Positions 14,960-59,130 of a DNA stretch of 64,000 bases are shown in pieces. Position 1 is the first letter of the stretch. Each line of letters begins with the position of its first letter. The position numbers and the translations under genes were made by a program. Under the pieces are notes generated by a model, which was given only the letters and a program-made list of their open reading frames with translations, was not told the origin of the DNA and searched no databases. This DNA is from Rikenellaceae bacterium. GTDB lineage: Bacteria; Bacteroidota; Bacteroidia; Bacteroidales; Rikenellaceae. The stretch covers positions 1 to 64,000 of the forward strand of contig SUZP01000005.1 in NCBI GenBank assembly GCA_015059865.1, read 5' to 3'.

Positions 14960-15475
14960 ATGATTCTTCTCTTCCCTACCGAGTTAGAGGCTGCGCGTTT
15001 GCGTGAGTTGCGCCCCGACCTCGATATTCGCATCTGCGGTATCGGAGCTGTCGAGACGGCAACCGAGGTGGCGCGTATTCTCCGCACCGAGCGCAAGCCG
15101 TTGCTGCTGTGTGGCATTGCAGGTGCCTACGACCGCAATTTGCAAAAGGGTGATGTCGTAGCCGTTACCGAGGAGCGATTTGCCTATCTATCAACGGGAT
15201 ACAATCGTTCATACCTCGCCACAATGGTAGTGGAAAATTTGCCTATGGTGCGTAGCAACACCGTATCGCACTGCTCGATGGTGGCCGATGGTGCCGAAAT
15301 CGAAAATATGGAGGGTGCAGCACTCTTTGCTATGGCACAGGCCGAGAGGGTGCGTTGTGGCGAGATTAGAGCCATATCCAACTATGTCGGCGAGGAGCGC
15401 AAGGAGTGGAATATCGAACTTGCACTCGAAAATCTCACCGAAACAATTTTAAATCTCGACTTAGATTGTATCTGA
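14960..15475 (+). CDS. mqnB: Futalosine hydrolase
   Basis: Nucleoside phosphorylase-like fold sequence (CGIGAVETA, ENMEGAALFAMA); overlaps mqnD by 1 nt. Confidence 0.85.
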   Translation: MILLFPTELEAARLRELRPDLDIRICGIGAVETATEVARILRTERKPLLLCGIAGAYDRNLQKGDVVAVTEERFAYLSTGYNRSYLATMVVENLPMVRSNTVSHCSMVADGAEIENMEGAALFAMAQAERVRCGEIRAISNYVGEERKEWNIELALENLTETILNLDLDCI

Positions 15476-17075: not shown

Positions 17076-17116
17076 AAAACTTTTCACAAAAAAGATATTC
17101 ATTTTTCATTTTTTTG

Positions 17117-17124
17117 TATCTTTG
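17117..17124 (+). promoter_or_regulatory. Bacteroidetes -7 box upstream of the 1086-aa lipoprotein
   Basis: TATCTTTG. Confidence 0.5.
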
Positions 17125-17152
17125 CAACGAGATAGCAAAGTGCGGAGGCAAA

Positions 17153-17184
17153 ATCCCTCCCCCGAAAAATTCGGGGGGGGGGAT
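17153..17184 (+). repeat. G10-tract hairpin in the leader of the 1086-aa lipoprotein
   Basis: ATCCCTCCCCCGAA-aaa-TTCGGGGGGGGGGAT; 10-G homopolymer at 17173-17182. Confidence 0.7.
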
Positions 17185-17289
17185 TTTGGGGTTTTAAGTA
17201 GCTGATTACCAAGTACTTAAAGCCGTTTACATAAAGCGTTGCTTTAATTGAGAATTGAGAATTAAGAATTAAGAATTAAAAAAGCAAAA

Positions 17290-17421
17290 AGCGCTCCCCA
17301 TAAAGCGAACGAGGTGAGCGCCGCCATCAAGGGCTTAAAGCCCGTCGCCATAAAGCAGTCGCAGACTGCGCCGCCATAATAGTTGCGCCGCGAAAACGCT
17401 CGGAGTCCGCAAAGCAGAAAA
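17290..17421 (+). repeat. Mini-hairpin array 1 with leader at 17383-17421
   Basis: CCATAAA-type linkers at 17298, 17324, 17348, 17374; palindromes GGGCTTAAAGCCC and GCAGTCGCAGACTGC; leader TTGCGCCGCGAAAACGCTCGGAGTCCGC. Confidence 0.75.
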
Positions 17422-17476
17422 CAAAAAACTTTTTAAAGTATCAATAAACACTATTTTTAACTAAACTAAAACAACA

Positions 17477-20400
17477 ATGAAAAAAATTTACAAGATTTTC
17501 ATGGCAGTTGCAGCGGTTGCAGGCGTAACAGCTTGTACCACAGATGCAACTGAGGACCTCGGAGTAAATCTCAACGAAGGTCAGACAACTCTCACATTGT
17601 CGCTTGACGACACCCGTACTCAGCTCGGCGAAAAGGCTGACGGCGTCTACCCTCTCACTTGGGCTGCGGGCGATGTTATTTCGGTAAATGGCTCGGTATC
17701 AAATGCTCTTGCAGAAGATGAGGCTGGCGCAACAACCGCAACATTTAACTTCGAAAAAGGCTTTGGTAGTGCGCCTTATTTCATTGCTTACCCTGCAACT
17801 TCGACTAACAATCAGGTTGTTTTTGCGGCTGAGCAAACACATGTAAGCAGCACCACTTTCGGCAATGGTGCAGCTGTAATGTATGGCTACGCAACTGACC
17901 TTAGCAGCGTTAAGCTCAACCACTTGACTGGCGTATTGAAGATTGGCGTCGTTAGCGGAACAGCTGAGCCTGCATATATCAAGGAGGTGCGTATCTCGAC
18001 CGTAGACCGCAAGCCTATCGCAGGTGCGTTCAATGTTGATGCAGAGGGCAAACTCACTGCAACTGAGGGAGCAACCGAGGTTATTACCTACAAGGCAGCA
18101 GACGATGCAAGTATCATAGCACCAATGGGCACAGCAACAAGCGAAAATCCTAACTATATCTATGTAGTAGTTCCTGCTGGCACTTACGGTGAGTTGTTTG
18201 TAACTTTGGAGAGCGCAGATGGTGTGATGTACAAGACCATCACAACCGACAGCACTAAGCCGATTAATGCAGGCGCAGTTCGCGAGTTCTCGAACAACAT
18301 CGAGTTTGTTCCAACTGACGAGGCTGAGGTATTTGTAATCTCTAATTATGGTGATTTGTGTGATTACAAGGAGGCTGTTGAGAAGGGCTCAACTCTTGGC
18401 GCTGTTTTGGTAAATGATATTGAACTTCCTGCTAAGGGCGATGTGTTAATTGGCCAAGATTGGGCTTCAATCAACGCTCCTGAGTACGCTGCCGAGTTCA
18501 ATGGTAATGGCTACGCTATCAAGGGTTTGTATGCTCCATTGTTCGACACCGTAGCAGCTACTATCAAGGGTGTGCACTTGAAGGATGTAAAGATTGCGAA
18601 GGAGTACGCTTCGGCAAACACCGGTGCTTTGGTTAATACCTACACAGGTACAAGCATTACCCACTGCTCGGCTGAGGGAACAATTACTCTTACACGAGCA
18701 AATAGTGTTGTAAACAAGATTGGCGGTTTGGTTGGTACGGTATCGAACTTCACAACTGACTGGGAGATTAGCGACTGCGTAAACAACTGTGCTATCACTG
18801 TGGCTTTGACCAAAGACGAAACATCGCAGACAACTTTCGTTGGAGGTATTATGGGTGATTACTATATTGCTGCTGAGGATGCTGCTGCCACAACAGTAAC
18901 CCTCTCAAACAATACAAATAATAGCGCAATCAGCTTAACCGGTGAAACTGGTGCGATTGTTGGCGTAAGCGGTATCGCAGCTCGCTTGTACAGTTGTAAC
19001 CTTGTACTTACCGATTGTGCAAATATCGGTAGCGTATCTGCGGAGCTTAGCGCTTCTATCGAGTTCCATGTATCTGGTATTGTAGGAAGATATGTTGCTG
19101 GTTACAATTTAACGGCAACAAATTGCTACAACTCTGGTAAGATTAGTGCTAATATTACAGCCGCTAACACTACCACTGCATACTCTTCGGCAGGTGGATG
19201 CTTCGGCTATTTAGCTAATTCAGCAGGAGGTCTCTTGACTATCAACAATTGCGATAATAGCGCCAATATCGAGGTTGAAGCAACTACTTCGATAGCAAAC
19301 CAGCTCCATATCGGTGGCCTTGCAGGCTGTCTCTATTCTATTATGGATGTGCAAAACTGCGAAAATACAGGAGAGAAGGTATTGTTTAATGGCCAAGGCT
19401 TATCTCATCGTTTCAACTTAGGTGGTTTGGCTGGTCGTGTCGCTTTGAATAATAGTAGCGATACAACCAATGAAAATGGTCTGAATGTCATTAACTTCAA
19501 AACTTGTACAAATGCAGCCGATGTCTCTATGACAGATGGTGGAACAATATCCCACCAAGTCTTTGTTGGAGGTGTTATAGCATCTAGTTATGCTTTGTCT
19601 ACTCAGCGTGCAACATTTACCTATGACGATTTGGATAATAATGGAAATATTACGGTAAGTTCTAAGGATTGGACATACACGGGAGATAAAAGTAGTGGCG
19701 ATGCATTGGATGTTCCAAGATTGATGGTAGGAGGTGTTCTCGGTACAGATTGGATTGACGATTCATCATCAACAGGTTCAAATTACAGTTCTTTCTGTAT
19801 TACTAATTGTAACAATGGTGACGAGAAGAGCGTAAATACCAAGAAAATTTTGATTACAGGCGAGAAAAACTACTCTGTATCGGTCGGAGGTATTGTAGGT
19901 GTTCGTTCGTATGGTACTCCTAAGAGCAACGCGACTACATATCCATCAAAGATAGATGGTTGCAAGAACTATATGACCATCGAGCATAGTGCTACTACCA
20001 CTTGTCAGGATAATCTCTATCTTGGTGGAATCTGCGGTATGGCTTCGCATGTTCAACGATATCAACGAGTATGCTTCCACAACTCTACCAACTATGGCAA
20101 TATCAACGCGAATGCTGCGAATGTTACAGATAATATTAGTGTGTCGGGCGTTTTGGCGGTACAAAGAAACCATCAGCAGAGAAGCGCAAGTAATGGTAGA
20201 AAGCCTGCTGGTGTAACAATGGAGAACGTTTATAATAAGGGTACTATTAATGTTGGTGGCACAACCGGCTTTACTTGCACCAATCTTCGAGTTGGTGGTC
20301 TTGTTGGCGAGGCAGAGTTATTGGCATATGCTGTGAACAATAATAATAGTTATACCGTAAATAACAATCATTATATCCTTACAGATGTAGCCAATGTCGG

Positions 20401-20737
20401 TAATATCAATGTATCGAATGTAACAGGTACTCGTTATATCGGTGGTGCTCTCGGACAAGATGTAAGATTAGGAGGCTCTCGCACATACACTAATTTTAAA
20501 TCACATTGTACAATTACAGTGAGCGAGGGTTATAATGCTGGTATGCTTGCTGGTATGGAGCCTACAGGTAGTGTTAAATTCTCGAATTGTGAGGTAGGTG
20601 GTACCTTGGTTAAGGGTGCAACATCTACACTTATCGATGCTGCAAATGTTACACAGTATAGCTTTGGTGCTACTACTGCACCAAACGCTTTGTATGCAAG
20701 CGTAACATTCTTGGCAACACAACCAGTAGTGGAGTAA
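17477..20737 (+). CDS. Large surface lipoprotein, fimbrillin-like N-terminus and GLUG-like repeats
   Basis: Lipobox AGVTACTTDA; DDTRTQLGEKADGVYPLTWAAGDVISVNG; many GGLVG/GGIVG...C-N repeats; 1086 aa. Confidence 0.8.
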   Translation: MKKIYKIFMAVAAVAGVTACTTDATEDLGVNLNEGQTTLTLSLDDTRTQLGEKADGVYPLTWAAGDVISVNGSVSNALAEDEAGATTATFNFEKGFGSAPYFIAYPATSTNNQVVFAAEQTHVSSTTFGNGAAVMYGYATDLSSVKLNHLTGVLKIGVVSGTAEPAYIKEVRISTVDRKPIAGAFNVDAEGKLTATEGATEVITYKAADDASIIAPMGTATSENPNYIYVVVPAGTYGELFVTLESADGVMYKTITTDSTKPINAGAVREFSNNIEFVPTDEAEVFVISNYGDLCDYKEAVEKGSTLGAVLVNDIELPAKGDVLIGQDWASINAPEYAAEFNGNGYAIKGLYAPLFDTVAATIKGVHLKDVKIAKEYASANTGALVNTYTGTSITHCSAEGTITLTRANSVVNKIGGLVGTVSNFTTDWEISDCVNNCAITVALTKDETSQTTFVGGIMGDYYIAAEDAAATTVTLSNNTNNSAISLTGETGAIVGVSGIAARLYSCNLVLTDCANIGSVSAELSASIEFHVSGIVGRYVAGYNLTATNCYNSGKISANITAANTTTAYSSAGGCFGYLANSAGGLLTINNCDNSANIEVEATTSIANQLHIGGLAGCLYSIMDVQNCENTGEKVLFNGQGLSHRFNLGGLAGRVALNNSSDTTNENGLNVINFKTCTNAADVSMTDGGTISHQVFVGGVIASSYALSTQRATFTYDDLDNNGNITVSSKDWTYTGDKSSGDALDVPRLMVGGVLGTDWIDDSSSTGSNYSSFCITNCNNGDEKSVNTKKILITGEKNYSVSVGGIVGVRSYGTPKSNATTYPSKIDGCKNYMTIEHSATTTCQDNLYLGGICGMASHVQRYQRVCFHNSTNYGNINANAANVTDNISVSGVLAVQRNHQQRSASNGRKPAGVTMENVYNKGTINVGGTTGFTCTNLRVGGLVGEAELLAYAVNNNNSYTVNNNHYILTDVANVGNINVSNVTGTRYIGGALGQDVRLGGSRTYTNFKSHCTITVSEGYNAGMLAGMEPTGSVKFSNCEVGGTLVKGATSTLIDAANVTQYSFGATTAPNALYASVTFLATQPVVE

Positions 20738-24270: not shown

Positions 24271-24385
24271 GGAACTCCTACCCTTGTCAAGGCGCAAGTT
24301 TTACTGGGGGTTACTGGGGGCGGGCGTTCCGCCCTTTACTGGGGGCGCACCTGCGGTGCTTTACTGGGGAGCGCGGAGAGTTAAA
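24271..24385 (-). repeat. Mini-hairpin array 2 (degenerate, CCCCAGTAAA linker), leader at 24271-24297
   Basis: TTTACTGGGG linkers at 24300, 24335, 24360; palindromes GGGCGTTCCGCCC and GCACCTGCGGTGC; reverse-complement leader CTTGCGCCTTGACAAGGGTAGGAGTTCC. Confidence 0.65.
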
Positions 24386-24403: not shown

Positions 24404-24607
24404 CCAAATAGTAAAATTGATTTTAAGTAGATGAGAGCAAGGCGCACAAGAAGCCCACTGCGCAGCATAATTTCCAAATAGTAAAATTGATTTTAAGGAG
24501 GCAAATACAAGGCGCACAAGAAACCCACTGCGCAGCATAGTAAACCTATGTGAGCAAGTGGGTTATCGCAGTGCAACGCAGTAGTTGCCCCTTAAAATCG
24601 ATTTTTA
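24404..24607 (-). repeat. Long inverted-repeat 3' element B with duplicated left half
   Basis: Arms 24482-24504 / 24585-24607; inner AACCCACT/AGTGGGTT; core GCGCAGCATAGTAAACCTATGTGAGC; left half duplicated with 70-bp period. Confidence 0.85.
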
Positions 24608-29836: not shown

Positions 29837-31738
29837 ATGAAACTATTTATTAACCTATTAATTTTCGCATTTACAATACACTCGGTGGCCATAGCACAAA
29901 CAACCACGCGCGTCGTTTGCGATGAGACTTGCAAGACCGAGTCGGGAGCAACAGCCGTCAAGGGCGATGGCTTTGCCGTTGTGTCGCCCGTAGGTCGCGG
30001 AACGGTCAAGATGATTGAGATGGCGCCTCGCCTTAACTCGCTCGATGGCAAAACGATTGCCATTGTCGGCGGTAGTTTTATGGCTCGTACTACCCACCCC
30101 GAACTAAAACGCCTCTTCGAGAAGCACTACCCTACTTGTCGTATTATTCTGCTCGATGAGATTGGCTCGGCAGGTGTTTATCCTGCGCCGGGCGTAACAC
30201 GCCGTTCAAAGGAGGAGTTTCAGGAGCGTTTGCGCTCGATGCGTGTCGATGCCGTTATTTCGGGTAACTGTGGTTGCGGACTCTGCACCCCGAAGGAGGT
30301 CGGCTCGTGCATCGCAGCCGAGTATATCGGCATTCCTGCCGTGGCTATTGCAGCACCTACATTTACCGAGCAGGTATTCTACACCTCGACCAATAATGGT
30401 GTCCCTGCTCCTCGCGTAGCAGAGTATCCGGGTGCATTTGCTTCGCACACCACCGAGGAGTTGATAAAAAACACGCGCGAGGTGTTATTTCCTCAAATCG
30501 TCAAGGCTCTGACCTCGCCAATTACCGCCGAGGAGTTGGAGCGTAGCGCAAAGAGCAACAAAGGCGATATTCGCGATGATATTTTCTACGGCACTTTGCA
30601 GGAGGTGAACAACCATTTCCAAGAGATGAATTGGTCTGATGGTCTGCCAATCGTACCGCCAACATTCGAGAAGGTTAGCGAGTTTTTGCGCTACACCGAC
30701 AAGCAATGGAACGAAACGGTTGCAGTACTCCCTGTGGCACATCGCAGCACCACGGTTTGGCATGTGGCTGTAAATGGTGTTATGGCTGGTTGCAAGCCCG
30801 AATATATGCCTATACTTATCGCTATGACAAAGGCTATCGGTGCCCCTTCGTTCCGCCGTACATTGGCAAGTACCCACGCGTGGGTGCCATACTCTTGGTT
30901 GAACGGTCCCGTTGCCCGACAGCTCGGCATCGACTGCGGTCAGGGCGAGATTAACGAGGAGGCAAATGTGGCGATAGGTCGCTTTATGAGCCTTGCGCTG
31001 ATGAACTTGGCTGGCTACTATATCAAGCAGAATCGTATGGGTACTTTCGGTTATCCGTTGCCTTGGTGCTTGGTTGAAGATGAGGTTGCTTGTCGTAGAA
31101 TTGGCTGGAAGCCTTACCACGCACGACTCGGATATCAGATGAACGACAACACCATCACGACCTCCTCTACTCTGCTTTGGGGTAATAATATGGCACCTTC
31201 AACCACCAACCCACAGAGGATTATGGAGTTGTTGGCGTGGGATATCACCGAGCGTTGTCAGTTTGCTCTCGGTAGTGGCAAGCAATTTACTTACCGCACC
31301 ATATTATTGACAGAGCCGATAGCGAAGAATTTGGCTACAAAGTATCGCACCCCATACGCACTCGAACAAGACCTTATCCGCACAGCTCGCCGTTCGCTCA
31401 AAGAGCGAGTATTCGCCAACTACTACGCCAATCCGGGCAGTAATCCTGAGGAGCGCCACCCAATTCGTAATTGGCGCGGACACCTCACTCGCACCGAAGG
31501 TGCTTCGATGACACCGACGCCCGTTTGGTACGACTCGCCCGAAGCGGAGATGATGACTATCCCTGCAATGAAGGAGGAGATGACCGCCTTTATTATCACG
31601 GGCGATTCGAGCCGCAACAAGGTACAGACAATGCCGGGTGGAGGCTTTGAGACGGTCTGCATAGAACTCCCTCACAATTGGAACAAACTGATGCAGGAGA
31701 AGGGCTATAAGCCGATTGAGGAGTACTATATCAAGTAG
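29837..31738 (+). CDS. Secreted two-domain protein: UGSC-like redox domain plus WSDGLPIVPP domain
   Basis: Signal peptide; DAVISGNCGCGLCTPKEVGSC resembles the UGSC motif region; NWSDGLPIVPPTFEKV ... VNGVMAGCKPEYMPILIA. Confidence 0.6.
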   Translation: MKLFINLLIFAFTIHSVAIAQTTTRVVCDETCKTESGATAVKGDGFAVVSPVGRGTVKMIEMAPRLNSLDGKTIAIVGGSFMARTTHPELKRLFEKHYPTCRIILLDEIGSAGVYPAPGVTRRSKEEFQERLRSMRVDAVISGNCGCGLCTPKEVGSCIAAEYIGIPAVAIAAPTFTEQVFYTSTNNGVPAPRVAEYPGAFASHTTEELIKNTREVLFPQIVKALTSPITAEELERSAKSNKGDIRDDIFYGTLQEVNNHFQEMNWSDGLPIVPPTFEKVSEFLRYTDKQWNETVAVLPVAHRSTTVWHVAVNGVMAGCKPEYMPILIAMTKAIGAPSFRRTLASTHAWVPYSWLNGPVARQLGIDCGQGEINEEANVAIGRFMSLALMNLAGYYIKQNRMGTFGYPLPWCLVEDEVACRRIGWKPYHARLGYQMNDNTITTSSTLLWGNNMAPSTTNPQRIMELLAWDITERCQFALGSGKQFTYRTILLTEPIAKNLATKYRTPYALEQDLIRTARRSLKERVFANYYANPGSNPEERHPIRNWRGHLTRTEGASMTPTPVWYDSPEAEMMTIPAMKEEMTAFIITGDSSRNKVQTMPGGGFETVCIELPHNWNKLMQEKGYKPIEEYYIK

Positions 31739-31809
31739 AATTGAGAATTGAGAATTGAGAATTGAGAATTGAGAATTAAGAATTGAGAATTGAGAATTGA
31801 AAATTGAGA
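31738..31809. repeat. Heptanucleotide tandem array, about 10 copies of AATTGAG/AATTAAG
   Basis: Directly readable GAATTGAGAATTGAG... Confidence 0.95.
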
Positions 31810-32029
31810 GGCGCGAGGTAAGGATAGCGGCGCCAACAAGTTGGCTTTATGGCGGCGGAAGCAGAGCTTCCTTTATAGCGGCGCAGCCTGACGACTGCTT
31901 TATAGTGCGCCATAGAGGGCTGAAAGCTAGACGCCATAGAACACCGCAGGTGTGACGCCATAGAGGGCGAAGCCCAACGATATAACCCTTTTGCGCCGTG
32001 ATGACGCTCGGAGTCCGCAAAACAAGAAA
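31805..32029. repeat. Mini-hairpin array 3 with central orientation switch, leader at 31991-32029
   Basis: TTTATRG linkers at 31846, 31872, 31899 then CGCCATAGA linkers at 31908, 31932, 31956; palindromes GCCAACAAGTTGGC, GGAAGCAGAGCTTCC, CACCGCAGGTG, GGGCGAAGCCC. Confidence 0.8.
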
Positions 32030-34288: not shown

Positions 34289-34406
34289 AGCCAACAACGG
34301 CAAAGATATGTTGGTGAGGTTACGCATAATAGTTTATCTTATCTATCACAAATATATGAAAACCTTTCGGAAATTGCAAATAAATGGCGATGTTTTTTGA
34401 TTTTTA

Positions 34407-34470
34407 GGGGTGTTAGAGGGTATTAGAGGGTGTTAGAGGGTGTTAGGGGTGTTAGGGGTGTTAAGGGGAT
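34407..34470. repeat. Tandem GGGTGTTAGA microsatellite
   Basis: ggggtgttagagggtattagagggtgttagagggtgttaggggtgttagg. Confidence 0.9.
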
Positions 34471-36616: not shown

Positions 36617-36844
36617 AGTTGTAATTTTTTTATTTGTTTATTAAATTTTGTTCTGTTTTGTTTTCGCTTTTTTGTAGAGCAAACCCCTTGCCAAAGCCGT
36701 TTTTCGTGAAAATTTGTAAAATATCTGCCAAAAATGAGGTTTCGCGCGACAAATATGTGACAAAATGGCAGTATTATTGAGAATTGACAGTTGACAATTG
36801 ACAATTGACAATTATTCTTTGGCTTTTAGCCATTAACCATTGGC

Positions 36845-37169
36845 TGCATTTGCCCACAAAAAAATCAGAGATGATTGAGGGAATTTTGCGCCAAACAAAA
36901 AAAACGAGTCAGCAGCATACTGCACAGCTACTAAAATTGGAATTTAAGCAGATGGTTGCATTTGCCCACAAAAAAATCAGAGATGATTGAGGGAATTTTG
37001 CGCCAAACAAAAAAACGAGTCAGCAGCATACTGCACAGCTACTAAAATTGGAATTTAAGCAGATGGTTGCAAGGCAAACAAGGAGCCGAGTGCGCAGCAT
37101 ACTAAGGCGTATGTGAGCAACTCGGCTACCGAAGTTTAACGCAGCAAACGCTGCTTAAAAACAATTTTA
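36845..37169 (-). repeat. Long inverted-repeat 3' element D with duplicated left half
   Basis: Arms 37043-37062 / 37151-37169; AGCCGAGT/ACTCGGCT; core GCGCAGCATACTAAGGCGTATGTGAGC; preceding tandem copies with 111-112 bp period. Confidence 0.85.
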
Positions 37170-43778: not shown

Positions 43779-43795
43779 TAGCGATGAGCTAAATT

Positions 43796-43892
43796 AAGAA
43801 TTAAAAATTAAAAATTAAAAATTAAAAATTGAGAATTAAAAATTAAAAATTCCTTTAATTATCAATTGTCAATTATCAATTGTCAATTTGAA
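43796..43892. repeat. Heptanucleotide-type tandem repeats (AATTAAA/AATTGTC variants)
   Basis: attaaaaattaaaaattaaaaatt ... caattgtcaattatcaattgtcaatt. Confidence 0.9.
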
Positions 43893-46072: not shown

Positions 46073-46165
46073 ACGATGATAAATTCAAAATTCAAAATTC
46101 AAAATTCAAAATTCAAAATTATTTTCTATTCTTCAATTCTGCATTTTGCATTTTGCATTCTGCAT

Positions 46166-48901
46166 TTAGAACAAATTGAGTTGTTCCGAGTTGCTCTCGT
46201 CAATATCGTTGCGAACAATCTCTATCGGAGTTCCACTATTATTTACAGGCTTTATAACCTCCACAGCCTCCTCTTCTGACACCTCATCAATTGGCTCAAC
46301 CATCGGCTCAATATCGTCATTTATTGGTTCATCGCCTATTTCAGGCTCCTCAGGCTCTACCACCTCAGGCTCAATAAAGGTCAAGGTTGCAACATCGAAG
46401 GTGGTGAGTCGCTTACCCTTAGCTTTGCACGACTTAACGCCCACAAACTCCTCTACATCAATAATATCGGCAGGGCGATTTTCGTGTGCGCCCTTGTAGG
46501 TTATCTGCAACTCGGCACCCTTTGCTCCCGAAATAGACTCGAAGCGGCACGAGCCATCCTCATCGAGGAAGTACTGCGCCTTGTCGGTCTGCTCCAACTG
46601 GAAACGCTTCATATAGTAGTAGCCCTGCTCATTGTCGAAGTAGCAGAGGTTATAGACCTTGCCAGCCTCGTAACGCTCGACGCGCACCGTATCATCAGGG
46701 AAGTGCTGTTGCGTGTCGAAGCCTGCAATGTAGGCGAGATTTTTCGCTGTCCACACCACAATCTTGTCGTTGCCCTTGAACTCGCCGAGCAGCTGACCGC
46801 GACCATCGCTATTGAGGCGGCGCACATCCTCATCCCACCATATATTCTGACCTGCCAAGGTCGAAACACCCTTCTCCTTCAAGACAATCTTGTGGATTGG
46901 GTAGCGCGAGAAGAGGTTACCCTGCGATTGGCGACCCTTGATTGCCAACTCCGAGAAGTCCAAATCCTGAATCATCTTCTTCAAGCGTGGGCGTGGTCGG
47001 AAGTATATCTTCAACACCTCGGCCTCGCCATTCGGATTGACCGAGAGGTACAAGATATCGCTCTTTGGCGTACCCTTCGTGAGGTCGTACTCCTTGTCGC
47101 GAGTAATGCCCTTGATGGCGCATCGCTTCATCATAATCGCGCCACCCTTACCATCACGATAGAGGAGGTTGTAGATGGTGCGCTCGTCGTTACGCTTAAA
47201 GACACCTATATAATATATGTTCTTATCGACAAACTTCTTCTCAGCAACCTTTGTGATAACATAGCGACCATCGCGCAAAATGACTATCACATCGTCGATA
47301 TCCGAGCAGTCGCAGACAAACTCCGCATCCTTCATCGACTTGCCGATACCGAAGAAGCCCTCTGCTCTATCGACATAGAGTTTCGCATTCGACACCGCCA
47401 CCTTTGTAGCCTCAATCGAATCGAACTCACGGATTTCGGTCTGACGCTCCTTGCCCTTGCCGTACTTCTCGCGGATATGCTCGAAGTAGGCGATAGCGTA
47501 GTCGGTAAGGTGTGCCAAGTCGTGCTTAACCTGCTTGATATCCTTTTCAATCTGCTTTATCTCGTTGTCAGCCTTATCCGAGTCGAAACGCGAGATACGA
47601 ATGAACTTCAACTCGGTCAGGCGCTGCACATCTTCAATCGTAACCTCCCTGCGCAACTGCGATTTGAACGGCTCCAAGCCCTTATCCACCGCTGCGTAAG
47701 CCTCCTCACGCGACTTGCAACCCTCGATAAGTTGGTAGAGTTTATTCTCGATAAAGATACGCTCCAACGATGCTGCGTGCCAAGCCTCATTATGCTCCGC
47801 CAAGGCTATCTCCAACTCTTGCTTCAATAACCCCTTCGTATGCTCTGCCGAGTGGCGCAAAATATCGCTTACGCCCATAAATGCAGGTTTATCGTCTTTG
47901 ATAACGCAGGCATTTGGCGAAATCGAAACCTCGCACAAGGTGAAGGCATAGAGTGCATCAATCGTCTTGTCGCACGACTCGCCTGCTGCCACCTGCACAA
48001 TAATCTCCGCCTTGCGTGCTGTGTTGTCATCGACACGGCGAATCTTAATCTTGCCCTTCTGGTTGGCCTTCAAGATAGAGTCTTTGATGCTCTCGGTGGT
48101 TGTTGAGAACGGTATCTCGGTAATAGCCAGAGTATTCTTATCCAACTTGGAAATCTTTGCTCGCACCTTCACTGCACCACCTCGCAAACCATCGTTATAG
48201 CGCGATACATCAATCATACCGCCCGTTGGGAAGTCGGGATAGAGTTGGAACTCCTCGCCTCTGAGATGAGCGATAGATGCCGAAATCAACTCGTTGAAGT
48301 TGTGAGGCAAAATCTTCGATGCCAAACCCACAGCGATACCCTCGGCTCCCTGCGCCAGCAAAAGTGGGAACTTCACAGGCAGGGTTACAGGCTCCTCCTT
48401 GCGACCATCGTACGCCAACATCCACTCGGTAGTCTTTTTATTATAGACCACCTCCAAAGCGAACTTTGACAAGCGCGCCTCGATATATCGTGCTGCCGCA
48501 GCATCATCGCCCGTGAGGATATTACCCCAGTTACCCTGACAGTCAATCAGCAACTCCTTCTGTCCGAGCTGCACCAACGCATCTTTGATTGATGCATCAC
48601 CGTGTGGGTGGTACTGCATGGTCTGTCCCACGAGGTTTGCCACCTTGTTCAGCTTGCCGTCATCAACAACCTTCATAGCGTGAAGGATACGGCGTTGCAC
48701 AGGCTTCAAACCATCGTCAATATGGGGCACTGCACGCTCCAAAATAACATACGAGGCGTAGTCCAAGAACCAATTCTTGTACATACCCGTCAGTCGCTTG
48801 GTGCTCTGCTCCGCCATCAAGGCGTCATACTTGCCGGGCTCCGAGGCGACAATCTCCTCCTCGTTCAACAACTCCTCCTGTATATCTTTCTCTTCGTTCA
48901 T
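46166..48901 (-). CDS. parC: Type II topoisomerase subunit A (topoisomerase IV ParC-like)
   Basis: YASYVILERAVPHIDDGLKPVQRRIL; paired with a ParE-like gene; MNEEKDIQ start. Confidence 0.88.
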   Translation of the reverse strand: MNEEKDIQEELLNEEEIVASEPGKYDALMAEQSTKRLTGMYKNWFLDYASYVILERAVPHIDDGLKPVQRRILHAMKVVDDGKLNKVANLVGQTMQYHPHGDASIKDALVQLGQKELLIDCQGNWGNILTGDDAAAARYIEARLSKFALEVVYNKKTTEWMLAYDGRKEEPVTLPVKFPLLLAQGAEGIAVGLASKILPHNFNELISASIAHLRGEEFQLYPDFPTGGMIDVSRYNDGLRGGAVKVRAKISKLDKNTLAITEIPFSTTTESIKDSILKANQKGKIKIRRVDDNTARKAEIIVQVAAGESCDKTIDALYAFTLCEVSISPNACVIKDDKPAFMGVSDILRHSAEHTKGLLKQELEIALAEHNEAWHAASLERIFIENKLYQLIEGCKSREEAYAAVDKGLEPFKSQLRREVTIEDVQRLTELKFIRISRFDSDKADNEIKQIEKDIKQVKHDLAHLTDYAIAYFEHIREKYGKGKERQTEIREFDSIEATKVAVSNAKLYVDRAEGFFGIGKSMKDAEFVCDCSDIDDVIVILRDGRYVITKVAEKKFVDKNIYYIGVFKRNDERTIYNLLYRDGKGGAIMMKRCAIKGITRDKEYDLTKGTPKSDILYLSVNPNGEAEVLKIYFRPRPRLKKMIQDLDFSELAIKGRQSQGNLFSRYPIHKIVLKEKGVSTLAGQNIWWDEDVRRLNSDGRGQLLGEFKGNDKIVVWTAKNLAYIAGFDTQQHFPDDTVRVERYEAGKVYNLCYFDNEQGYYYMKRFQLEQTDKAQYFLDEDGSCRFESISGAKGAELQITYKGAHENRPADIIDVEEFVGVKSCKAKGKRLTTFDVATLTFIEPEVVEPEEPEIGDEPINDDIEPMVEPIDEVSEEEAVEVIKPVNNSGTPIEIVRNDIDESNSEQLNLF

Positions 48902-51035: not shown

Positions 51036-51151
51036 ATTATCTTTGTAGGGGTTGTTAGAGGTTATTAAGGGATATTAGAGGTTATTAGTGTTTCTCTTTT
51101 TCACTAATTGCCGCTAACTACCGCTAACCACCGCTAATTGCCGCTATTAAA

Positions 51152-51880
51152 CTAATTCTTTCTAATTTCCGCCAAAGCACTTGTCATCATCTCCTGCACC
51201 TCCTTTGCCATCTCCGCAGGCTCGGTCGCTGCAACCCTCTCTGCCGAGATTGGAGGTAACACCTTCACCGTAAGTCGATGCTTCCAATTGAACCAATAGC
51301 TCTTTTTCTTAAAAATGTTGCGTGTGCCGTCAAGCACCACAGGCAAAATCTCCACACCAGCCTCCTTTGCCAAGGCAAATGCGCCCTGCTTGAAGCGGTG
51401 TATCTCGCCATCTTTCGAACGAGTACCCTCAGGGAAAATCGCAATCGAAGCTCCACGCGATATCCACATCTTGCCATCGTTCACAACCTTCGCCATAGCC
51501 TCCGCAGCACGACCTCGCTGGATAGGAATATCGCCGTGCGCAATCAACAACGGACCGATGTATGGGATACGGAACACCTCCTGCTTCGACACCCAACGGA
51601 AGTTCAAAGGGAGGAAGTAGAGCGAGATGATATCCGCCATGCTCTGGTGGTTGAGCGTGATGACATACGACTTGTTCGGGTCGATATGCTCCAAGCCCTC
51701 GACCTCCTGTTTCCAAGTTGGTGGCACCTTCCAGAAGAACATACAAATCATCTTCGAGCACCAATGTACCGCCTTACGAGCCTTGTCGAAGGGGTAACAA
51801 ACTGCAAGCACAATCCACGACACGACAAACCAAAAGGTCAGTTCCACGAGGATATAAAGTGCAAAAAGTAGTGTAAACAT
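51152..51880 (-). CDS. plsC: 1-acyl-sn-glycerol-3-phosphate acyltransferase
   Basis: LNHQSMADI; FPEGTRSKDGE. Confidence 0.92.
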   Translation of the reverse strand: MFTLLFALYILVELTFWFVVSWIVLAVCYPFDKARKAVHWCSKMICMFFWKVPPTWKQEVEGLEHIDPNKSYVITLNHQSMADIISLYFLPLNFRWVSKQEVFRIPYIGPLLIAHGDIPIQRGRAAEAMAKVVNDGKMWISRGASIAIFPEGTRSKDGEIHRFKQGAFALAKEAGVEILPVVLDGTRNIFKKKSYWFNWKHRLTVKVLPPISAERVAATEPAEMAKEVQEMMTSALAEIRKN

Positions 51881-51899: not shown

Positions 51900-52025
51900 T
51901 TTTCCGAACTCCAAGAGTAGTCAAGGCGCAAGCGTTTATGACGGCGCAGTCTGCGACTGCTTTATAGCGGCGGGCTTTCAGCCCTTTATGGCGTCAGGCT
52001 TTCTGCCTTCTATGGCGCGCTTTAA
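51900..52025 (-). repeat. Mini-hairpin array 4, leader at 51900-51932
   Basis: TTTATRR linkers at 51935, 51961, 51985 plus 52009 (TCTATGG); palindromes GCAGTCTGCGACTGC, GGGCTTTCAGCCC, AGGCTTTCTGCCT. Confidence 0.8.
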
Positions 52026-54842: not shown

Positions 54843-55610
54843 CTATTCATTTACAATCTGTTCGGGAGTTATGCGCAGTGCATCCATCGCCGCATCATCA
54901 TCCTCGATACCGAGATTTGCGACATACCAGCCATAGCCTATGCCCGCCAACGCAGCCAGCAGAATAATCACCGCCACAACCATCACAAAATCGACCTTCT
55001 TGCGCGGTTTGACTGGTTTTCTATGTGCAGGCGCAGAGGCGTTAGAGGTGTTAGAGGCGTTAGAGGCGTTAGAGGCGTTAGAGGTAATTTCGCATTCTGC
55101 ATTTTGCTTTTCACATTCTGCATTTTGCATTAACCCCTCTTTCGAGGGCTTTTCCTCCTCGCGGCCCGGCATAGTGTGCAAGCACCCTCTGCCCTCGCTC
55201 CGCAGCGTCGGTTCTGCATTTCTCTCGTCTCTCGTCTCTCGTCTCTCGTCTTGCTTTGGAATATACGGTGTCTGCTTTGGCAGTTCAACCTGCTCAACGG
55301 GTGGATAGAGTCGCAGCACCTTTGTCGAAGGCTCGATGCGCAGTGTTCCCACCTCGCCCAAGCGGCAGTAGCCATACTGCTCCAACTCGTGACGCACCTC
55401 AAATATGAAGCGGTCTATTGACACCGCAGCCTCCATCTCGCTAAGTCCTTTGGCGCGGAGTAGTGATGCAAGAACGCCATCATCGGTATTCAGCAAATCA
55501 GAGAATAGTCGTTCGCCCGTCTCCTTCACTACAAAAGCTCCGAAGGCAGGCACAACCAATCTGCGATTACTACGCAGATGCTCTGCTATAACCTCAATAA
55601 CGATACTCAT
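54843..55610 (-). CDS. HU-like (CCDC81-like) DNA-binding domain protein with repeat-rich linker and TM segment
   Basis: IAEHLRSNRRLVVPAFGAFVVKETGE; C-terminal TM VDFVMVVAVIILLAALAGIGYG; linker ASNASNASNTSNAS. Confidence 0.75.
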   Translation of the reverse strand: MSIVIEVIAEHLRSNRRLVVPAFGAFVVKETGERLFSDLLNTDDGVLASLLRAKGLSEMEAAVSIDRFIFEVRHELEQYGYCRLGEVGTLRIEPSTKVLRLYPPVEQVELPKQTPYIPKQDERRETRDERNAEPTLRSEGRGCLHTMPGREEEKPSKEGLMQNAECEKQNAECEITSNASNASNASNTSNASAPAHRKPVKPRKKVDFVMVVAVIILLAALAGIGYGWYVANLGIEDDDAAMDALRITPEQIVNE

Positions 55611-59012: not shown

Positions 59013-59043
59013 GCGCAAAAAGTATTACATTTGTGCTGTAATC

Positions 59044-59130
59044 AATTGATAATTGACAATTGACAATTGACAATTAAAGGTAATTTCTCAATTCTCAATT
59101 CTCAATTCTTAATTCTTAATTTTTAATTTT
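59044..59130. repeat. Heptanucleotide-type tandem repeats
   Basis: aattgacaattgacaattgacaatt ... tctcaattctcaattctcaattctt. Confidence 0.9.

Follow-up and report, generated by a model that had tools for sequence, protein, structure and literature searches.

A dispersed intergenic repeat with a leader, four G-rich linkers and three hairpin slots in a Rikenellaceae genome

The window analyzed here, the first 64,000 nucleotides of contig SUZP01000005.1 of a Rikenellaceae bacterium, contains four intergenic loci in which a leader-like sequence is followed by G-rich linkers alternating with short palindromes. A first-pass annotation had reported four such arrays, and their positions, linkers, palindromes and the sharing of palindromes between arrays are all confirmed in the sequence. 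Some corrections apply: array 3 consists of two head-to-head frames, three leaderless linker arrays must be added, and the third hairpin of array 1 (GCGCTCACCTCGTTCGC) is imperfect. The features are as follows.

17246-17279, unstranded: 7-bp tandem repeat (AATTAAG) at the array end of array 1
17291-17382, minus strand: body of array 1, with four linkers, three hairpins and an AGCGC close
17355-17369, 17331-17343 and 17305-17321: hairpins of array 1
17383-17406, minus strand: leader of array 1, ACTCCGAGCGTTTTCGCGGCGCAA, fitting the family leader pattern
24274-24297, plus strand: leader of array 2, fitting the family leader pattern
24298-24374, plus strand: body of array 2, with four TTACTGGGG-type linkers, two hairpins and an AGCGC close
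24322-24334 and 24347-24359: hairpins of array 2
31737-31809, unstranded: 7-bp tandem repeat (AGAATTG, about 10 copies), beginning at the stop codon of the gene at 29837-31738
31811-31897, plus strand: inverted half of array 3, its linkers reversed relative to the forward half
31883-31898, 31857-31871 and 31832-31845: hairpins of the inverted half of array 3
31898-31990, minus strand: forward half of array 3, with about four linkers (linker 1 degenerate) and three hairpins
31991-32014, minus strand: leader of array 3
34404-34467, plus strand: linker-only array without a recognizable leader, TTAGAGGGTG, 6.8 copies
51046-51146, unstranded: linker-only arrays in both orientations, without a leader
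51908-51931, plus strand: leader of array 4, fitting the family leader pattern
51932-52020, plus strand: body of array 4, with four linkers and three hairpins
51946-51960, 51972-51984 and 51995-52009: hairpins of array 4
55035-55084, plus strand: linker-only array without a leader, AGAGGCGTT, 5.6 copies

Array 1 lies upstream of the gene at 17477-20737, whose start is about 70 bp away; rplM is downstream of array 2, and the leader of array 4 is 27 bp from the start of an acyltransferase gene (51152-51880). The two frames of array 3 together comprise about 4+4 linkers and 3+3 hairpins, and a comparable double copy is found elsewhere in the host genome (contig C12, about 14975-15156). Double copies of this kind, with forward and then inverted linkers, were also seen at loci L108, L113, L116 and L130, and their halves could base-pair with one another. 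The window holds further repeats of other types, namely a 111-bp tandem unit in 2.1 copies at 36841-37071 and a 70-bp unit in 1.9 copies at 24404-24539, the latter containing AAGGCGCA...TGCGCAGC.

The window arrays belong to a non-coding repeat that is dispersed between genes and built to a fixed plan: a leader (consensus ACTCC-N7-GTCA[A/C]GGCGCA), four G-rich linkers, up to three mini-hairpins in the gaps between them, and a closing [T/A]GCGC. We parsed 140 distinct copies, taken from 1.67 Mb of assembled host sequence and from loci in further species; this set leaves out window arrays 3 and 4, whose ends misfit the parser and which were read by hand. Four linkers were found in 116 of the 140 copies, three in 11, five in 8 and two in 4, with one copy unparsed, and these counts are descriptive rather than blind, the linker pattern having been composed after inspection of the copies and including GG-like motifs. 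Hand reading of the listed hairpin-free copies agrees in giving mostly four linkers. No hairpin was recognized in 43 of the 140 copies, most of which still have four linkers; the others mostly carry one to three hairpins. Linker sequences (TTACTGGGG, TTTATGGCG and TATAGGGG among others) vary between copies and tend to agree within a copy.

The hairpins are almost confined to the three inter-linker slots, and each type has its preferred place: type A occupies slot 1 in 27 of 30 cases, type B slot 2 in 58 of 75, and type D slot 3 in 53 of 60. Palindromes are reused across copies, GGGCGTTCCGCCC occurring 66 times. Hairpin variants keep their pairing (96% of pairs in type B, 97.5% in type C, as opposed to 20-60% when the partners of these two types are slid by one), and both-side changes were seen three times in each type among distinct sequences. 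Read by eye, the third-slot hairpin has a GCG/CGC stem followed inward by an internal loop and another short stem. The constant linkers, variable palindromes and leader-like end described for the window are borne out, and the 24-27 bp spacing given there holds across hairpin-filled gaps (23-28 bp) but not across most empty ones, which measure 8-11 bp. The element is a four-linker, three-slot frame and not a growing array. An array that expands from its leader by taking up new inserts, as the CRISPR-like layout had suggested, shares only a superficial arrangement with it: CRISPR spacers are unique and non-palindromic and their units vary in number, whereas here the number is nearly fixed, slots and orders are preferred, and the inserts are palindromic and reused. 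We therefore reject growth of this kind, to which we attach next to no probability.

The repeat is abundant in its host and scarce almost everywhere else. The leader pattern, with at most one mismatch, has 50 matches in the 1.72-Mb host assembly. A longer form of the leader (at most three mismatches) matches the host genome 45 times and the reversed control 0 times, so the arrays are not products of chance; the reversed control pattern has at most one match in any genome. A scan with the leader pattern found 16-85 leader copies in eight of 180 genomes of the genus and 0-2 in the remaining 172, and background only in 296 genomes at the level of the order. The high-copy eight are Alistipes-like ruminant metagenome-assembled genomes (MAGs), and those named relatives in which the leader occurs are MAGs assigned to Alistipes or Rikenellaceae, sheep, yak and water deer being the source of several. 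Outside these eight, a small number of low-copy cases (loci L136, L142 and L146) appear to be genuine. The sole contig of a viral collection with the element (L128, IMGVR_UViG_3300024269_004012) is 99.98% identical to host contig C8 across 8085 bases, which suggests chromosomal DNA classed as viral. A phage or plasmid origin is rejected on this near-identity and on a search for phage or plasmid matches to the element, which found none.

The copies are placed in a polar manner with respect to genes. As judged from simple ORF calls (ORFs of at least 360 nt), 126 of the 140 copies do not overlap an ORF. The leader end is no more than 100 bp from a start codon in 51 copies, and the array end is that close in 5; on the leader side, 25 copies have a stop codon at such a distance. 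Co-directional gaps are arranged as (start, stop) in 51 cases versus (stop, start) in 15, with p ~1e-5 when shared ancestry is ignored; neither this value nor the 116 of 140 above is a set of independent counts, because the copies are related by descent. The copies sit mostly between genes, and their G-rich strand is antisense a short distance before a start codon or sense directly past a stop codon. Many copies have T-rich sequence beside the leader, corresponding to terminator tails or, on the other strand, to A-rich sequence preceding a start codon. Window array 1 is one of eight host loci at which paralogous surface-lipoprotein-like genes follow the element. Several of these genes have a longer upstream block in common; for this reason, these copies were probably spread by gene duplication. 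The window gene of this family (17101-20737) has at least seven genomic paralogues that also carry the element upstream.

Many copies leave little room for a promoter between leader and start codon, so that the element is probably transcribed. It could then act as RNA, the C-rich strand being read in 5' leaders or between operon genes, and the linkers and hairpins either stabilizing the mRNA or offering four docking sites to an RNA-binding protein. A Bacteroidetes-type promoter motif upstream of window array 4, the covariation of the hairpin stems and the frequent GCA, GAA or GTA loops of the C-rich strand point in this direction. In the closing stem GCGCA/TGCGC, the inner four pairs can form in nearly every copy, and one copy is compensated, as GCGTA/TACGC, but the stem barely varies and hence says little for an RNA element. 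The folding energies are modest (mean z of -1.7 with hairpins and -1.2 without), and these weak scores led us to reject a stable fold of the whole element as RNA. The 43 copies with no recognized hairpin also fit this reading poorly, as do the rplM copy, which lies upstream of a promoter motif, and other copies that follow terminators. A known RNA family is rejected as well: Rfam gave no window match at its gathering score, and the weak overlaps with arrays 1 and 3 were far below it. An RNA element and a selfish repeat are the chief competitors of the quadruplex reading given below; we consider the former conceivable but doubtful.

Comparison of orthologous sites shows that the element changes between species; these comparisons are partial, G056 being covered to about 0.37 Mb. 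At the site of array 4, the element is present in the host genome (G000) and present in a different version in G005, while the orthologous 5' leaders in G056 and G139 lack it. Presence or absence between orthologous sites was likewise seen for L130, L079, L071 and L107, and different versions at the same site for L123 versus C44, L149 versus C41 and L100 versus C16. In the pair L123 and C44, the content is altered in place and the four linkers are retained. The boundaries of the element are blurred in such comparisons by diverged flanks and by heptad tracts that also change. From these alignments, the content of the element is probably swapped in place by recombination between copies.

The same differences, together with the patchy distribution, the high copy number in eight related species and the occurrence of tandem copies, would also be expected of a non-autonomous selfish repeat akin to MITEs or REPs, one that inserts beside T-rich tracts, has no host function and owes its four linkers to common ancestry; a preference for T-tracts could even yield the observed polarity, through terminators and through A-tracts upstream of start codons. 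The machinery for such a repeat was sought without success. Y1 transposase (PF01797) was not found in the host or the other high-copy genomes and occurs in two of the 180 genus genomes, neither of them high-copy (the drafts being incomplete), and mobilization by a RAYT is therefore rejected. A resident reverse transcriptase is rejected as the mobilizer since none was found in five of the high-copy genomes (G000, G069, G139, G056 and G005); the enzyme is present in G166, G168 and G047. The site comparisons revealed no clear inverted-repeat ends or target duplication, though the flanks have diverged, and reading of the leader matches brought to notice no autonomous parent with an ORF between leader and end. 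The earlier alternative of one fixed-length MITE holds in part, in that the format is constant whereas the length depends on the hairpins. The linkers of a copy change in concert and yet remain four in number, which ancestry alone explains poorly. We thus regard a purely selfish repeat as unlikely.

Among known mobile repeats, BrickBuilt, a MITE of Porphyromonas gingivalis (PMC4596501), belongs to the same order and is likewise intergenic and multicopy, with a leader, internal repeats and a distinct other end. It is built, however, of 23-bp tandem bricks in variable number with a long leader and tail, neither of which is seen here, and its inverted-repeat ends resemble IS5-family elements, whereas no clear ends of this kind are seen in our copies. 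REP/BIME sequences share the mosaic of palindromes and linkers, the intergenic location and the high copy number (PMC3733652, PMC2817692), but are associated with RAYT transposases; our element has a fixed linker number, and no Y1 transposase was found in the genome. By eye, the feet of the hairpins bear no GTAG tag, and CGTC stands beside some hairpins of the GGCG class only.

An intramolecular quadruplex consists of four G-tracts joined by three loops of any length. The retention of four linkers despite wide differences in linker sequence between copies leads us to suggest that putative quadruplex action best explains a frame of four linkers and three gaps of any length, a proposal to which we give somewhat less than an even chance. 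All four G-runs are at least three long in 73 of the 116 four-linker copies, and the variance of G-run length within a copy is 0.56 versus 1.18 for shuffled copies; these run-length counts are biased, as the linker pattern seeks GG-containing motifs and was written after the copies had been seen. When linkers 3 and 4 were located through their flanking hairpins, with no G required, 98-100% contained GG and 83-89% GGG. At least one linker has GG only (e.g., GGCG) in 42 of the 116 copies. In the window, array 2 alone is canonical, with four unbroken G-runs of at least four G each; array 1 has one or more GG-only linkers, and arrays 3 and 4 likewise by reading, so that three of the four arrays are without canonical G-runs. 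Four broken G-runs would form a weak quadruplex at best. The capacity for four GG tracts is no higher than in shuffled sequence, that for four GGG tracts is moderately above it (61% vs 39%), and the leaderless linker arrays of the window, with about 4 to 7 units, speak against a strict four.

In the proposed mechanism, the four linkers would jointly provide the G-tracts of an intramolecular quadruplex, or of a single-strand structure resembling one. Its loops may be short or consist of whole hairpins, and the GGCGCA/TGCGC clamp could hold it shut. Folding would take place on the DNA strand that transcription or replication lays open, and the folded element might tune the expression of the neighboring gene or merely be tolerated. 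Copies would have spread in part by being duplicated along with the surface-lipoprotein-like genes. A more elaborate version, in which a putative quadruplex family has its loops filled slot by slot with dedicated hairpins, is oriented at gene starts, is swapped in place and acts as an interchangeable expression-tuning cassette, seems to us improbable.

The closest precedent is the family of four-unit quadruplex-forming GGGNATC-type repeats of Xanthomonas and Nostoc, for which four units were reported to be preferred and quadruplexes to form, as seen by CD (Rehm et al. 2015, PMC4692102). Those repeats are placed in a strand-specific manner, antisense just upstream of ORFs or sense near stops (PMC4692102), and our element shares this placement as well as G-rich units, the preference for four, an intergenic position between aligned genes and a patchy taxonomic distribution. 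It differs in that GGGNATC repeats are pure tandems of a 7-mer, whereas here linkers of 9-11 nt and many sequences lie 8-11 nt apart, or 23-28 nt apart across hairpins, between a conserved leader and a closing GCGC, and the quadruplex is inferred rather than CD-based. The element is best regarded as akin to the four-unit G-rich repeats known from intergenic DNA, and it also has traits of mosaic palindromic ones. In agreement with the view that it belongs to no named family, we found none in Rfam or the open-access literature, where a word search, which can miss a description, returned none. If the four-linker rule does reflect quadruplex folding, a further bacterial lineage keeps four G-tracts near gene starts, with loops that span from a few bases to entire hairpins, and the copies constitute a natural variant series for testing the roles of quadruplex repeats in bacteria. 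Otherwise, the restriction to four linkers still calls for an explanation.

Lastly, 7-bp arrays are abundant alongside the element, in many cases at its array end, and a heptad tract adjoins the array side in 31 of 49 cases. Heptads were considered as part of the element and rejected, as they also occur without it; like the heptamer tandem repeats already described (e.g., TAACTGA, PMC4679880), they form a separate class, and some related genomes have heptamers with little or no element. A period of 7 is found in 289 of 576 tandem-repeat rows of the host, with about 20 unit sequences (AATTGAC, ACTACTC, ACGAGAG and AAAATGC among them) that are mostly intergenic. An excess of heptamers in bacteria is already known (cited in PMC4679880 and PMC4692102); their variety and density in the host genome looked high. 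About 20 heptad arrays lie in the window, for example at 31737-31809, 43791-43888, 46081-46167 and 59043-59128.
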